A stretch of DNA of 23,118 nucleotides from a virus. Numbering within the stretch: the first letter of the stretch is position 1; the number at the start of each line of letters is the position of its first letter. The DNA is taken from the IMG/VR virus record IMGVR_UViG_3300037264_000710, positions 1-23,118 of that record. One strand, written 5' to 3'. The notes under the pieces were generated by a model that saw only the letters and a list, made by a program, of their open reading frames with translations, was not told the origin of the DNA and did not search any database. Of this stretch, positions 2,525 to 21,506 are shown in pieces. The translations under genes and the position numbers were made by a program.

Positions 2525-2947
2525 ATGCTTTCTGATATTATTACATTTTTACAACACTATTCAAATTTTATTGGATTGGTGGTGGTTGCATATATGTGGG
2601 GATATTATGAACAATTGGTGTTTCGATTTAGATCACCAAAGGTTGGCAAATACATAGCCCCAAAACGAATGTTGGGGTGGGCAAGTTTAGAATATCATTT
2701 ACCTATGGTGATGATGTGGCAAATAATTTGTTTTATTGCTGGTTATTGGTGGTTCATTGGAATGTTTGCAGTTCTACAGGATGATGCATATTTTAGATTT
2801 CATCCAACCGACACACGAGATAAAAACGATTGGGTGAATGCAAAACTTGGTGGATTTGCGGTTTACGGTGCGTGGATTCCGTACACATATATAATTGGTG
2901 CGGGCATTTCATTTGTATTGTGGTTCGTTCAACAGGAGACGTGGTAA
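2525..2947 (+). CDS. Trp-rich membrane protein, about three spans
   Basis: 140 residues from ATG 2525, with GGAG 8 bases upstream. Hydrophobic stretches near residues 14-32, 58-82 and 112-136 predict three membrane spans. The loops are basic after the first span (FRFRSPKVGKYIAPKR) and acidic or polar after the second (FHPTDTRDKNDW). Trp and Tyr are frequent near the span ends, as in inner-membrane proteins. Its start overlaps the remnant of the split coiled-coil gene, and its stop overlaps the next start (TAATG), so it is coupled to the following membrane protein. No family is recognised; the pair may act together at the host membrane, but that is inference from coupling only. Confidence 0.72.
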   Translation: MLSDIITFLQHYSNFIGLVVVAYMWGYYEQLVFRFRSPKVGKYIAPKRMLGWASLEYHLPMVMMWQIICFIAGYWWFIGMFAVLQDDAYFRFHPTDTRDKNDWVNAKLGGFAVYGAWIPYTYIIGAGISFVLWFVQQETW

Positions 2948-3324
2948 TGATATTTGCATTTAGTATACTATTACATACTGCACTACCAATATTCATTTGT
3001 TTTTTGTTGGGACTTCCACTGTGGATTAATTTACTTATGGGAGCACAAGGTGCGTGGCCAGACGCATCTCGTTATTTTCAAAAAGACTCTAAAAATTGGA
3101 ATGACTTGTATAAATGGTCTCATGTGTGGAAGTGGTGGTTGTTACTATTACCAGCCTGGGCACTTCACGTTGGCATGGATTTGTTTGTTCATACAAAAGA
3201 AAAACGTGCATACGAAGGGCGGTGGTTTGACCGTTTTGTGCCAGATTATTACAAGTGGTGGATAGTTCCGTTGGAATTGTTCATTTGGTTGACAATGGGT
3301 TTAATCGTTAGTATGGAGATGTAA
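2947..3324 (+). CDS. Trp-rich membrane protein, about three spans
   Basis: 125 residues. The start is taken at ATG 2947, which overlaps the upstream stop (TAATG) and follows the ribosome site GGAGACG; a longer in-frame start at 2830 would lie deep inside the previous gene and adds a sequence unlike a real N-terminus. Hydrophobic segments near residues 3-32, 60-80 and 102-122 predict three spans. The first loop is hydrophilic (SRYFQKDSKNWNDLYKW) and the second is charged (HTKEKRAYEGRWFDRF). The spacing of spans and loops is similar to that of its upstream neighbour, although clear sequence identity is not seen. No family is recognised. Confidence 0.7.
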   Translation: MIFAFSILLHTALPIFICFLLGLPLWINLLMGAQGAWPDASRYFQKDSKNWNDLYKWSHVWKWWLLLLPAWALHVGMDLFVHTKEKRAYEGRWFDRFVPDYYKWWIVPLELFIWLTMGLIVSMEM

Positions 3325-11064: not shown

Positions 11065-11979
11065 ATGGCTGAAAATGCGTACTGGATTTCCCCATCAGGT
11101 GGTCTTATTTCAGTAGATAGACACATACATCTCATTATTCAGAAACCACAATTGTTTGGACTGACAAAACCTGATATTGAGAAAATGTACAAGAAATATA
11201 AAGAACCAATTGGATTGGAAGGCCACGCACGTGAACAACTTATGTTGCATGTGATGAATCGTGGTTGGATTCGATTACGAAATCGTGGTGGAAATTGGAC
11301 GGTACAACTTGGAAAGTTGGATGGGAGAACTAAACGAAATTTGTTTGACGGCATTTATGCGATGATAAAACGCCATGATGTGAGCAAATATGGGCAATTT
11401 ACCATTCATGATTTGTCAACAAACAAAGTGGTTTCATCATCCGCACCGGACGTATTGAGTGGGAAGGTGTTTGAACAGAAGAAAATAAAAGAGCACAAAT
11501 CGCAATTGGGCAGTCTTGCAAAGTGGATATTGTATGAGCATCTTATAAAAGAGGTTACAGTTCCAAGTTCAAGATATTTTGTGATTGATGATAAGGGAAA
11601 AATTTTACCAATTGGAGTTGGTAAATTCGATTTTCATGGCAGTGTGGTGGATGTATATCCAAAATTAGAAAAAGATGCATTAGAAACGTTTGGTGATGAA
11701 TCCACTGTTCGTCATGCGGCCGCAGCTGGTCATTCTGATTTATATGCAATTTTATATCGAGCGGGGTTTGTACGAGGCGGAATGAATTTTAATGATACCA
11801 TGTGGATAGCAATTATGTCGAGCAAAGTATCATCAAAAGCGTTAATGAGTGTTCTTGCGATAATTAAAAAACGTGGTGTTAAAAAAATGGACGTAGAAGA
11901 TTTTGGTCCTGATGGATATACGTTAAGAAATTACCACAATAATTTGTCACCGGAAGAATTCATAGAAAATTTTTTATAA
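11065..11979 (+). CDS. Phage protein of unknown function, head of virion block
   Basis: 304 residues from ATG 11065, chosen because GGAG lies 9 bases upstream; the in-frame ATG at 11041 has no such site and probably lies at the start of the message. The N-terminal part (YWISPSGGLISVDRHIHLII, then FGLT, GHAREQLMLHVMNRGWIRLR and WTVQLGKL) resembles a domain found in several large-phage proteins of unknown role. The central part has a positively charged segment around KKIKEHKSQLG, and the C-terminal half is mixed alpha/beta. No enzyme motif is seen. It is the first gene after the terminator and is followed after 11 bases by the duplicated start region of the neck gene, so it belongs to the late, structural block by position. 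Confidence 0.7.
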   Translation: MAENAYWISPSGGLISVDRHIHLIIQKPQLFGLTKPDIEKMYKKYKEPIGLEGHAREQLMLHVMNRGWIRLRNRGGNWTVQLGKLDGRTKRNLFDGIYAMIKRHDVSKYGQFTIHDLSTNKVVSSSAPDVLSGKVFEQKKIKEHKSQLGSLAKWILYEHLIKEVTVPSSRYFVIDDKGKILPIGVGKFDFHGSVVDVYPKLEKDALETFGDESTVRHAAAAGHSDLYAILYRAGFVRGGMNFNDTMWIAIMSSKVSSKALMSVLAIIKKRGVKKMDVEDFGPDGYTLRNYHNNLSPEEFIENFL

Positions 11980-11988
11980 TGGAGTAAG

Positions 11989-12017
11989 TTATGAGTGGAG
12001 TCACAATTTCAATTTGG
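11989..12017 (+). repeat. Direct repeat, left copy: start of the neck gene
   Basis: 29 bases (TT followed by ATGAGTGGAGTCACAATT and TCAATTTGG) are identical to 12732-12760, which are the true start of the neck gene. In this copy the frame from ATG 11991 reads MSGVTISIWIVE and then stops (TAA 12027-12029). A good ribosome site (GGAG, 11981-11984) precedes it, so this stub may be translated. Confidence 0.95.
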
Positions 12018-12021
12018 ATAG

Positions 12022-12035
12022 TGGAGTAAGTTATG
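12022..12035 (+). repeat. Second copy of the neck gene's ribosome site, used by the endonuclease gene
   Basis: TGGAGTAAGTTATG at 11980-11993 is repeated exactly at 12022-12035 (offset 42), where its ATG is the start codon of the homing endonuclease. The endonuclease gene has thus captured a copy of the structural gene's translation start. Confidence 0.9.
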
Positions 12036-12731
12036 CATAACACACTACATTCTATTGAGACAAAAAATAAAATAAGTGATGCACTTAAAGGAAGGCGTGC
12101 GTGGAACAAAGGTATTCCTATGTCCGATGAGCAAAAACAAAAACTGAAAGAAAATCACGTTGGGATGTTAGGAAAACATCACACCAAAAACACAAAACGA
12201 AAAATCAGTTTTGGCAATACTGGAAAAGTGTGTTCTATGGAATCTAGATTGGCCATGTCAAATTCAAAGAAAGGAAAACACCATACAGAAGAAACCAAGC
12301 AGAAGATTAGTAAATCTATGAGCGTTGTTGCAAAAAAAAGATTTTCTAATCCAACCAATCATCCAAACTGGGGAAAGCATCTTTCTAGTGAAACCAAAAG
12401 AAAAATTAGATTTGCAAGATTAAAAAATATCTCAGAAAATAAGTTCAATGGGCGACAAGTAATACCATCATATAATCCAATCGCATGTAAAATTATAGAT
12501 GAATATGGTAAACAGTATGGATACACGTTTCAACATGCTATGAATGGTGGTGAATTTCATATCAAAGAATTGGGATATTGGGTAGATGGCTACGATAAAG
12601 AAAAGAACGTTGTAATTGAATATTATGAAAACCATCATAACAAACCATCTAAGGTTAAAAAAGATTTGATTAGAAAACAGGAAATAATAAATCATCTTGA
12701 TTGTAAATTTATAGAATTGATGGAGAATTAA
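12033..12731 (+). CDS. Homing endonuclease, NUMOD3 repeats with PD-(D/E)XK-like nuclease end
   Basis: 232 residues from ATG 12033, with GGAG 6 bases upstream. Residues 1-135 hold several NUMOD3-type DNA-binding units: ETKNKISDALKGRRAWNKG, GKHHTKNTKRKISFG, KGKHHTEETKQKISKSM and SSETKRKIRFARL. The C-terminal part (GYWVDGYDKEKNVVIEYYEN, then HHNKPSKVKKDLIRKQEI) resembles the Vsr-like/EDxHD nucleases found in some phage homing endonucleases: an acidic strand, E-Y, H, then a K-D-x-x-R-K-x-x-I helix. No HNH or GIY-YIG motif is seen. Such enzymes cut genomes that lack the gene and spread by repair. It lies between 29-bp copies of the neck gene's start, and its last codons contain the ribosome site now used by that gene. 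Confidence 0.83.
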   Translation: MHNTLHSIETKNKISDALKGRRAWNKGIPMSDEQKQKLKENHVGMLGKHHTKNTKRKISFGNTGKVCSMESRLAMSNSKKGKHHTEETKQKISKSMSVVAKKRFSNPTNHPNWGKHLSSETKRKIRFARLKNISENKFNGRQVIPSYNPIACKIIDEYGKQYGYTFQHAMNGGEFHIKELGYWVDGYDKEKNVVIEYYENHHNKPSKVKKDLIRKQEIINHLDCKFIELMEN

Positions 12732-12760
12732 TTATGAGTGGAGTCACAATTTCAATTTGG
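12732..12760 (+). repeat. Direct repeat, right copy: true start of the neck gene
   Basis: Identical to 11989-12017. Recombination between the copies would remove 743 bases, including the endonuclease gene, and restore the neck gene behind its original leader. Confidence 0.95.
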
Positions 12761-13927
12761 CCGGGCAGTGGTTCTGCGGTCACAACATCAAGTAATTCTA
12801 CACCATTTGGATTTTATGATGCAGATACAGAATTTCAATCTGAAGCACCTAAAGTAGCATCATGGTGTGCAATTCGACTAGGTTATCCAATACAAGATAT
12901 AGAAATCCAGGACAAGACTTTTTATGCCTGCTTCGAAGAAGCCATCACAGAATATTCTAGTCAGGTAAATCAATATAATGCAAAACAAAATATGTTGAGA
13001 CTTGTTGGTTCAACTACAAGTTCCAATTTAACACACAAGTCTGTTGCACCAAGTGTTGGTGCAATCATAAAATTATCAGAACAATATGGTCAAGAGGTAT
13101 TGGTTGGTGGTGATATTGATTTAAGACGTGGATATTTTACAACAACACCATACACACAATCATATGATTTGTATACTGCAATTTCTTCTAGTTTTGTATC
13201 TCAAGGGTTTGCAGTTCCAGAACGAGCAAATATTGAAATTAAACGCGTGTTCCACACAGCGCCACCTGCAATCGTTCGATACTTTGACCCATTTGCAGGA
13301 ACAGGAATGGGAACGTATAGTATGTTACAAGAATTTGGTTGGACAAACTATTCAGTTGCAACATCATTTATGATGTTACCGATTTATGCAGACATTTTGA
13401 GATTGCAAGCTATAGAATTTAATGACCAAGTAAGACGGTCAGGTTATGGATTTGAGGTTATCAATAACAAGATACGAATATTTCCAGTACCAAGTGACCA
13501 GTTTAATATATGGTTTGATTTTATACTCAAATCGGATAGGAATGACCCGATTACAAATGCGGGCGGTCAAGCAATGACAAGTGGTGTTTCTGATATATCA
13601 AATGTACCGTTTAATAACATGGTATATTCTCAAATAAATGATATTGGCAAACAATGGATTAGACGATACACATTAGCGACTGCGAAACAAACACTTGGTG
13701 GCATACGTGCAAAATACGCAACAATACCAATACCAAACAGTGAAGTAACATTAGATGGCGATGCACTAAAAACGGCTGGTGATACGGAACGTATTGCACT
13801 TATTGAGGAATTGAGAACTACTCTTGAAGAAATGACGAAACGAAAACAATTAGAAGCCGAAGCAGAAGAAGCGGATAATTTGAGAAAGACGCTCAATTCA
13901 ATACCATTAAAAATTTATATCGGATAA
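12734..13927 (+). CDS. Neck protein, T4 gp13-like
   Basis: 397 residues from ATG 12734. GGAG at 12722-12725, inside the last codons of the homing endonuclease, gives the ribosome site. The N-terminal part (PFGFYDADTEFQSEAPKVAS, then WCAIRLGYPIQDIEIQDKTF and YACFEEAITEYSSQVNQ) is typical of gp13-like neck proteins of large myoviruses, which close the filled head and join it to the tail. The middle contains FDPFAGTGMGTYSMLQEFGW and conserved beta segments, and the C-terminus a charged coiled coil (IEELRTTLEEMTKRKQLEAE). It is longer than T4 gp13 (309 residues). The assignment rests on pattern memory plus position before gp14-like and gp15-like genes. Confidence 0.72.
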   Translation: MSGVTISIWPGSGSAVTTSSNSTPFGFYDADTEFQSEAPKVASWCAIRLGYPIQDIEIQDKTFYACFEEAITEYSSQVNQYNAKQNMLRLVGSTTSSNLTHKSVAPSVGAIIKLSEQYGQEVLVGGDIDLRRGYFTTTPYTQSYDLYTAISSSFVSQGFAVPERANIEIKRVFHTAPPAIVRYFDPFAGTGMGTYSMLQEFGWTNYSVATSFMMLPIYADILRLQAIEFNDQVRRSGYGFEVINNKIRIFPVPSDQFNIWFDFILKSDRNDPITNAGGQAMTSGVSDISNVPFNNMVYSQINDIGKQWIRRYTLATAKQTLGGIRAKYATIPIPNSEVTLDGDALKTAGDTERIALIEELRTTLEEMTKRKQLEAEAEEADNLRKTLNSIPLKIYIG

Positions 13928-13933
13928 AACTAT

Positions 13934-15196
13934 ATGGAATCATTAAAATACTACATAGTAGGATATTGGTCTGATGCAAACAAAGAATATATGTTTGCAA
14001 CAAAATCATACGATTCTACCGAATTATTACGTGCAAAACGGTACGCATCATTTACACGAGCCCACGCACTTGCAAAAGAACTTAGTAAAGGACAGTTTGT
14101 GGTTGCACCAATGTATGTTGGGCCTGCAAAAAAACGAAATTGGCAAGTGTTAGGTGTGTTTGGAGATGGTAGTATCAAGCCCATTAAAGAAGATATCAAA
14201 ATTGATGTGAACAAAGGTGACACTGTTCTCGTGGGTAGATTCAAGAACAAACCAATTAAAGTAAAGAAAATTGGTAAAGACGACCACGGCATGCCCACTA
14301 TTAATGGTAGAGTTGCTACTACGTTTCGATTGAAGAAAGAATCTATGAAATTAAAAGATTTATTAATGAAGGAAACCCCCGATAGAGTCACCACACCATC
14401 TGGTAGAAGACTCTCCTGGAATGTTGGGGGCCAACCGTTTGGGGTGTTTAAAAACAAGTTTTATGTAGGTGATACAAATGATACACATTGGAACTTGGGT
14501 AATATTGTACCTGAAAAGGAGAAAAAAGGCAAAGATATTGATAGATATGATTTTATATATGCAGGAAGAGTGTGGCCAAAACAAAAAATAATATCATTTT
14601 GGGACTATCCAAAAACTAACTCCTCACTGCTTGGAATCATTAAGCAAATAGGAAACGAATTACACGCAAATATTTTAACCGATGAAACTTACATGTTAGA
14701 ATTGTCGAATGGTAATTTGGTATTAATTTCAAAATATTTTAAGAAAAATCAAAAAATACAACAACGGTCAAAAGAAGAACGTGGGCAAAAGCATGTTATG
14801 AGTCCACTTGTAAAAGGACACCAAGACGTTCCACCAGGAGTTGGTTCAAGAAAAACAGTTGCGGGCATGCCCTATTCTGTATATCATAATAAACAAATGA
14901 CGAGTGATGGTGTTGTTAAATTGATGGATATTATAAACGAAGCGCCTCACGTTGCACTTGGAAATAAATCGGTTGATTTGCGTATAGAAAAATATCCTAT
15001 TCCAGACCACGAAAAACAAATGTTATTGAAACAGTTTATTAGTGACGAGGGGATTACAGGTATTAGTCAAAAATGGGGAAGGATGCTTCGATTCAAAAAA
15101 ACAGGTGTAGATTTCATAAAAGACCCAAAAGTATATGATAAACCTTCTCACATTCAATTACCTAGTTGGTGGGAAAAATTTGCGATTTGGAGATAA
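13934..15196 (+). CDS. Phage protein of unknown function between neck genes
   Basis: 420 residues from ATG 13934, six bases after the gp13-like gene; the ribosome site is weak. The N-terminus (KYYIVGYWSDANKEYMFATK) is beta-rich. Residues 95-135 (GDTVLVGRFKNKPIKVKKIG, then KDDHGMPTINGRVATTFRL) match a short beta domain I know from other large-phage proteins of unknown role. The rest contains RVTTPSGRRLSWNVGGQPFG and a basic C-terminal half that ends with SWWEKFAIWR. No enzyme motif is seen. T4 has no gene of this kind between 13 and 14, so it is either an added virion part or a protein used in assembly. Its tight spacing argues for late expression with its neighbours. Confidence 0.68.
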   Translation: MESLKYYIVGYWSDANKEYMFATKSYDSTELLRAKRYASFTRAHALAKELSKGQFVVAPMYVGPAKKRNWQVLGVFGDGSIKPIKEDIKIDVNKGDTVLVGRFKNKPIKVKKIGKDDHGMPTINGRVATTFRLKKESMKLKDLLMKETPDRVTTPSGRRLSWNVGGQPFGVFKNKFYVGDTNDTHWNLGNIVPEKEKKGKDIDRYDFIYAGRVWPKQKIISFWDYPKTNSSLLGIIKQIGNELHANILTDETYMLELSNGNLVLISKYFKKNQKIQQRSKEERGQKHVMSPLVKGHQDVPPGVGSRKTVAGMPYSVYHNKQMTSDGVVKLMDIINEAPHVALGNKSVDLRIEKYPIPDHEKQMLLKQFISDEGITGISQKWGRMLRFKKTGVDFIKDPKVYDKPSHIQLPSWWEKFAIWR

Positions 15197-20852: not shown

Positions 20853-21506
20853 ATGTTTACAAGACGTTGTTCAAATCCAAAAAATAATCCAAATTGTAAA
20901 ATAACACTTTATTATAATAGTTATAAATCTTGGAATAGAGCAAAAAATTGTAATGCTACGTGCGTGGGTTGTGTGTGGTATGGTCGAAAACACAATTCCA
21001 CATCAATAAAAAAGATGAAAAAATCATCTAAACTTAGGTGGACTAGACCAGAAGAACGAGAAAAAATTAGTAAATCTAAGATAGGAAAATCAAGTTGGAA
21101 TAAGGGAAAATCATTTTCAATTAATACTAAAAGGTTAATGAGTGTTTCTGCAAAAAAACGAATGAAAAGAATTGGAAGCCCGTCGCGTAGAACAGATGTT
21201 AAACAAAAAATAATACTACACCACACTGGATTTTCATCTTGGAAAGAATACATTGAAAAGTATCCGAAAAAATTACAATATAAAGCAGAAGTAAGACGAG
21301 AAACAAATTCTCAACTAAAACAAAATCCCAAACTTACAAATTTTGATAAAAGAGGCAAGAATGGTGTACAAGGAGCGTATCAACTAGACCACATCATTAG
21401 TATAGATGCCGGATTCAAAAAACATATAAGTTCAAAAAAAATTGGACATATTAGTAATTTAAGAATGATTCCCTGGGAAGAAAACATTTCCAAAGGAAAC
21501 AAATAA
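20853..21506 (+). CDS. HNH homing endonuclease with NUMOD3 motif
   Basis: 217 residues from ATG 20853, with GAGGTG 3 bases upstream. The N-terminus has C6, C15, C33, C37 and C40, possibly a zinc site. Residues 66-86 (PEEREKISKSKIGKSSWNKG) are a NUMOD3 DNA-binding unit. The C-terminus has the HNH nuclease: YQLDHIISIDAGFKKHI (D179, H180), then SNLRMIPWEENISKGNK (N202, N211), as in phage HNH homing enzymes. It stands alone in the gap between sheath and the zinc-ribbon protein gene and does not interrupt a reading frame that can be seen. Its nuclease differs from that of the endonuclease at 12033, although both share NUMOD3. Confidence 0.9.
   Translation: MFTRRCSNPKNNPNCKITLYYNSYKSWNRAKNCNATCVGCVWYGRKHNSTSIKKMKKSSKLRWTRPEEREKISKSKIGKSSWNKGKSFSINTKRLMSVSAKKRMKRIGSPSRRTDVKQKIILHHTGFSSWKEYIEKYPKKLQYKAEVRRETNSQLKQNPKLTNFDKRGKNGVQGAYQLDHIISIDAGFKKHISSKKIGHISNLRMIPWEENISKGNK

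Follow-up and report, generated by a model that had tools for sequence, protein, structure and literature searches.

How can a free-standing homing endonuclease gene occupy the very start of an essential phage gene and leave that gene readable? To our knowledge, little is understood of the way in which such endonucleases become established in essential genes when they have no splicing partner. The question is raised by a virus contig, IMG/VR record IMGVR_UViG_3300037264_000710, of which positions 1 to 23,118 were analyzed (this whole stretch of 23,118 nt is called the window below). At one locus in the window, the start of the gene for a neck protein is present twice, and an endonuclease gene lies between the two copies.

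Layout of the doubled gene start

The features of the locus, in window coordinates, are as follows.

11980 to 11990, plus strand: original leader of the neck gene, TGGAGTAAGTT, with the Shine-Dalgarno motif GGAG (from reading the sequence and from a leader search of the window)
11989 to 12017, plus strand: 5' copy of a 29-bp exact repeat, TTATGAGTGGAGTCACAATTTCAATTTGG (from a repeat search and shuffles)
11991 to 12029, plus strand: stub open reading frame (ORF) of 12 codons, MSGVTISIWIVE and a stop, consisting of the neck ATG and 8 codons, then 3 codons and the stop across the second leader
12018 to 12021, plus strand: ATAG, the sole novel junction (TTTGG-ATAG-TGGAG); the original has ATAA, one mismatch
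12022 to 12035, plus strand: second leader and ATG, TGGAGTAAGTTATG, a 14-bp exact copy at offset 42 and the start signal of the endonuclease
12033 to 12731, plus strand: free-standing homing endonuclease gene, 232 aa, with NUMOD3 repeats and a C-terminal Vsr/I-Bth0305I-like nuclease domain
12722 to 12725, plus strand: new Shine-Dalgarno motif of the neck gene, GGAG, within the last codons of the endonuclease and 8 nt before the neck ATG
12732 to 12760, plus strand: 3' copy of the 29-bp exact repeat, holding the present start of the neck gene
12734 to 13927, plus strand: neck or head-completion (head-tail adaptor) gene, 397 aa, intact (PHROG 211; annotated relatives)

The gene upstream of the neck leader has its stop at 11979. 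The neck ATG and its 8 following codons appear first at 11991 to 12017 and again, unchanged, at 12734 to 12760. The two copies of the 29-bp repeat are separated by an offset of 743 and flank a 714-bp insert, while the 14-bp repeat has its copies at 11980 to 11993 and 12022 to 12035. An earlier note, made from the sequence alone, had given this order, the coordinates, and both repeats (29 bp, offset 743; 14 bp, offset 42), and all of these proved exact to the base.

Chance does not explain the longer repeat: the 29-mer has exactly two copies in the window and was not recovered from any of 100 dinucleotide shuffles, even when 3 mismatches were tolerated. The leader 13-mer GGAGTAAGTTATG matches exactly only at the two leader sites of the window, and the leader copy extends further, to a match of 17 of 18 bp (ATAATGG.../ATAGTGG...). 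When viral contigs were searched for the exact 29-mer, no match was returned. One extra junction accounts for both repeats because the offset of 42 is the sum of 27, 4, and 11. Deleting the 743 bp between the repeats in silico yields the leader followed by MSGVTISIWPGSGS and restores the neck protein exactly. Recombination between the repeats could remove the endonuclease cleanly, as the earlier note had suggested, and the flanking repeat predicts precise loss or amplification of the gene in the population. The 27-bp identity means either that the event was recent or that homogeneity has been kept by recombination.

A layout of this kind could also come from the assembly of mixed strains with and without the endonuclease, given that this is a 23-kb virus contig and that a repeat of 29 bp is short compared with the length of reads. 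The junction TTTGG-ATAG-TGGAG, however, belongs to neither the plain nor the inserted allele, and all ORFs are intact, with both start signals coherent. We consider an assembly artifact highly improbable.

The 12-codon stub reported in the earlier note is indeed present, with its TAA at 12027 to 12029, 3 nt ahead of the endonuclease ATG at 12033. Such closeness might indicate a functional stub, the translation of which couples or limits expression of the endonuclease, and coupling to an ORF upstream is frequent among T4 endonucleases (PMC2988022). Its 27 bp nevertheless match the neck start at 100% identity, which is what a recent copy not under selection would show; it has no special RNA fold (z of −0.4), and no relatives carry one. 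A function for the stub therefore seems improbable to us. RNA folding at both junctions was ordinary, and scans for promoters and terminators returned nothing beyond chance expectation.

The endonuclease and the neck gene

The endonuclease contains five NUMOD3 stretches (E of 4.9e-20), a feature of modular DNA-binding regions. Its C-terminal domain is common to hundreds of phage proteins (365 related stretches), and in a sequence alignment D185, E196, E199, H202, D211, and R214 were invariant in 24 of 24 family members. A structural model of the domain (mean pLDDT of 89) matched I-Bth0305I (3r3p_A) at second rank, with a probability of 0.97, a TMt of 0.54, and a weak E-value of 0.05, and also matched the Vsr repair nuclease (1vsr). 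The E-values of the structure matches are only about 0.05 to 0.12, yet the fold agrees, and the model is consistent with a Vsr-like catalytic fold. A match to PHROG 314 labels the protein a homing endonuclease, some members of its family match DUF559 and MTES_1575, and PDB sequence searches returned no match. Modeling makes it a likely member of the EDxHD type (I-Bth0305I type), and we infer that it is an active nuclease. The earlier note had proposed a homing endonuclease that sits at the neck start and uses a copied leader; the NUMOD3 repeats, the Vsr-like domain, and the exact leader copy all uphold that proposal.

Like I-Bth0305I and other EDxHD enzymes, the protein joins a Vsr-like nuclease domain to DNA-binding repeats. 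The recognition site of I-Bth0305I is nearly 60 bp long (PMC3943268). The uninterrupted stretch of leader, ATG, 27 bp, and CCGGGC is gone from the window genome, and each copy carries half of it; if the recognition site is long, this halving would protect the window genome.

The neck gene matches PHROG 211, head-tail adaptor Ad2 (E of 2.4e-13), and its relatives in Flavobacterium phages are annotated as head completion proteins. Its ORF is whole, so that no intron is needed, and the site holds no intein and no split host protein; the endonuclease gene is free-standing. The last codons of the endonuclease, M-E-N-stop (GGAG AAT TAA), contain the present Shine-Dalgarno motif of the neck gene. In the earlier note, the insertion was said to leave the neck gene working. 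The intact ORF and its new Shine-Dalgarno motif agree with this, and both start signals would be expected to be translated. The ribosome site of the displaced gene lies in the last endonuclease codons, as the note had said; it is made of the endonuclease's own codons, as in several relatives, and need not be a copy of the neck leader.

We compared the locus with 93 distinct relatives of the neck protein from IMG/VR and GTDB, at about 45 to 57% identity. The nearest are about 55 to 57% identical, and none is close. Because there is no close sister phage without the insert, the empty site is one that we infer. A doubled start in phages lacking the endonuclease, which the earlier note had named as evidence against its reading, was absent from all 93 of these relatives, none of them close, in up to 1,500 nt upstream where sequence was available; the best ungapped score was 12, compared with 29 in the window. 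The window endonuclease also had no match in the loci of the 93 relatives.

The breakpoint TTTGG/CCG falls between W and P of a conserved N-terminal box, which reads W-x-G in 85 of the 93 relatives and W-P-G in 68. Homing enzymes usually target conserved positions. Judging from the alignment, the W/P position, in the most conserved N-terminal codons, is probably the cut site, and the locus thus provides a testable candidate.

Start codons as insertion sites in related loci

Two independent comparisons, at a baseplate gene and at a split intein, indicate from sequence that insertion at start codons recurs in this endonuclease family. The baseplate wedge gene (PHROG 10646) has the site without an endonuclease, TAATAACGGAGATAAGAT-ATGCCAGTT, in L198 and L199, at 81% protein identity to L043. 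At the same leader in L065, the sequence reads TAATGGAGAATAAATA-ATGCCAAAT, and the ATG now starts a nuclease, the 3' end of which, TTTGGAGAAATATA-ATGCCGGTT, gives the baseplate gene a new start; the arrangement in L043 is similar. In both L065 and L043, GGAGAA...ATGCC is re-formed at the 3' end of the endonuclease. The second comparison concerns a split-intein gene, which in L251 consists of the N- and C-halves only. In L090, a nuclease (2590 to 3324) lies between the halves and ends in the first codons of the C-half, which begins at 3314.

The gene at this second site encodes a cytidylyltransferase-like phage protein of 785 aa that is whole in L253 and that is interrupted at residue 427 by an apparent split intein (N-half, CIAGD...; C-half, MKIKSIKPINKVQTRYDIKVDNFSCYYANGILVHN/TDG). 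A Vsr-like nuclease is present between the intein halves in L090 and L093 and absent in L251, which makes a clean pair with and without the insert, of the 'fractured gene' kind. This arrangement, with a nuclease between split-intein halves, was reportedly described by Dassa in 2009. L090 resembles it, whereas the window site has no intron or intein and the displaced start is simply re-supplied.

Across the family, 20 of 59 nuclease ORFs (34%) overlap the gene that follows by 5 nt or more, compared with 20 of 202 (10%) for other genes (Fisher P of 4e-5). The idea that every family member carries a Shine-Dalgarno motif in its end was rejected: about a quarter do (14 of 56), and the frequency of internal motifs, 0.27 in nucleases and 0.20 in control genes, is not clearly higher. 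Copying of the next gene's start, in register, into the endonuclease start was not significant for the family as a whole (P of 0.11). Possible further copies were seen in L394 and L343, in which the nuclease start matches the next gene's start in register at 16 and 13 of 18 bases, respectively. An apparent start copy in L062/L365 was set aside, as the match apparently lies out of register in the coding end of the upstream gene.

A stub or doubled start was found at none of about 50 other family loci. Because no other family locus has one, the stub is not part of the general entry route; it looks like a secondary scar of repair or of tandem duplication. The earlier note had taken the locus as a record of how such genes enter at start codons. 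The relatives at the baseplate gene and at the C-half of the split intein support that part, while the stub, unique to the window among the family loci compared, does not represent a general route. The roughly 50 comparable loci, including the sites with and without an insert at the baseplate gene and the split intein, offer material for checking the start-codon rule.

These insertions also bear on whether the 29-bp repeat is a target-site duplication, in which a mobile piece that brought its own leader was inserted behind codon 9, with duplication of the flank as in transposition. A 29-bp direct repeat flanking a 714-bp insert has the expected form. This explanation, however, requires that the 14-bp leader was copied separately in an additional event, there are no terminal inverted repeats at the insert ends, and the only ORF of the insert is the nuclease, with no transposase. 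The start-codon insertions in the relatives lack such flanking repeats (20 to 40 bp). We know of no such long staggered duplications made by homing endonucleases, and we judge a target-site duplication very improbable.

Proposed history of the locus

The explanation that we favor as a whole, with a probability of roughly 0.6, is insertion at the start codon by intronless homing plus one extra, recent junction of tandem type. A gene for a free-standing EDxHD (Vsr-like) endonuclease would have moved by intronless homing into the neck start codon and taken the neck leader as its own translation signal, and its 3' end would supply GGAG directly before the re-formed neck ATG. Because the endonuclease 3' end encodes this motif, the essential neck gene stays whole. 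The tandem-type junction would then have linked codon 9 of the neck gene (TGG) back to a point immediately before the leader, yielding the 29-bp repeat, the 14-bp repeat, and the 12-codon stub together. In the simplest case, an empty allele would have been broken by the enzyme at the conserved W/P codons and then misrepaired: the left end survived as far as the break and was linked nonhomologously to donor DNA upstream of the leader, endonuclease, and neck sequence. Several points weigh against this history. They include the lack of a close sister phage, the absence of the doubled start from the other family loci, the nonsignificant start copying across the family, and the weak E-values of the structure matches. 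In addition, the microhomology at the junction is short, and cleavage only 27 bp away from where the gene was inserted would be unusual next to the T4 enzymes.

The order of events could instead be reversed, with replication slippage, in a phage lacking the insert, first making a 42-bp tandem copy of the leader and neck start and the endonuclease later entering the start codon of the second copy. The offset of 42 is a simple tandem unit, the unit junction shows short similarity of the AATTT type, and the same end product would arise without an enzyme-made break at W/P; sequence alone cannot order the events. Still, none of the 93 relatives, which lack the insert, has the tandem copy, and it would have to be coincidence that the break hit precisely the most conserved codons of the N-terminus. 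We think it unlikely that duplication came first.

Under the favored explanation, insertion followed by an extra junction, the locus would document a natural case of intronless homing into a start codon, and it represents one solution to settling in an essential gene, in that both start signals are re-supplied. Phage homing endonuclease genes cluster near essential genes (PMC10448857). The free-standing endonucleases of T4 are intergenic, have cut sites that lie hundreds to thousands of bp away from the genes that encode them, and often overlap the upstream ORF (PMC2988022). The window resembles the intronless homing of T4 seg and mob genes in having a free-standing nuclease gene between or at conserved phage genes, which may use its neighbors' translation signals. 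The T4 genes differ in cutting at a distance, in their intergenic position, and in their coupling, in most cases, to the ORF upstream (PMC2988022), whereas the window gene lies at the start codon of the downstream gene, with a copied leader and a Shine-Dalgarno motif in its own last codons. As with mobE in nrdA of Aeh1 and mobA in gene 60 of T4, the essential gene that received the endonuclease still functions; in those two cases, the host protein is split into two chains, whereas the window encodes an undivided neck protein and the sole leftover is a 12-codon stub. Breaks made by SegB in T6 lead to local tandem repeats that include the nuclease gene, with a 718-bp unit (PMC13096335). Those are selected multicopy arrays, in contrast to the single partial copy of a gene start in the window. 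The literature that we searched, which covered few subscription papers, did not describe a homing endonuclease flanked by two copies of a gene start.

We offer a broader idea only tentatively. Vsr-like endonuclease genes may be specialized to invade essential phage genes at start codons with no intron or intein, to take the leader, and to restart the displaced gene from their own last codons; the stub would then be a frozen product of mishoming that shows the position of the cut.

Several other genes of the window and of related contigs were noted. No similar repeats were found flanking either a second, probable nuclease gene containing NUMOD3 (PHROG 5104; 20853 to 21506), which directly follows the tail sheath gene, or a TnpB gene (IS200/IS605-type RNA-guided nuclease; 1251 to 2432; low GC, 0.31); TnpA was not noticed among the window ORFs. 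The first ORF (185 to 664) contains a near-exact internal tandem duplication of about 78 residues. The neck gene is separated from the next conserved gene by a 420-aa gene (13934 to 15196), parts of which match L037, L093, L094, and L097; in most relatives, those two conserved genes are adjacent. By gene order, the contig most like the window is the one represented by both L362 and L037; it has a related nuclease at a different place, flanked by a tape-measure-like gene and the gene that follows, each of which it overlaps by 1 base.
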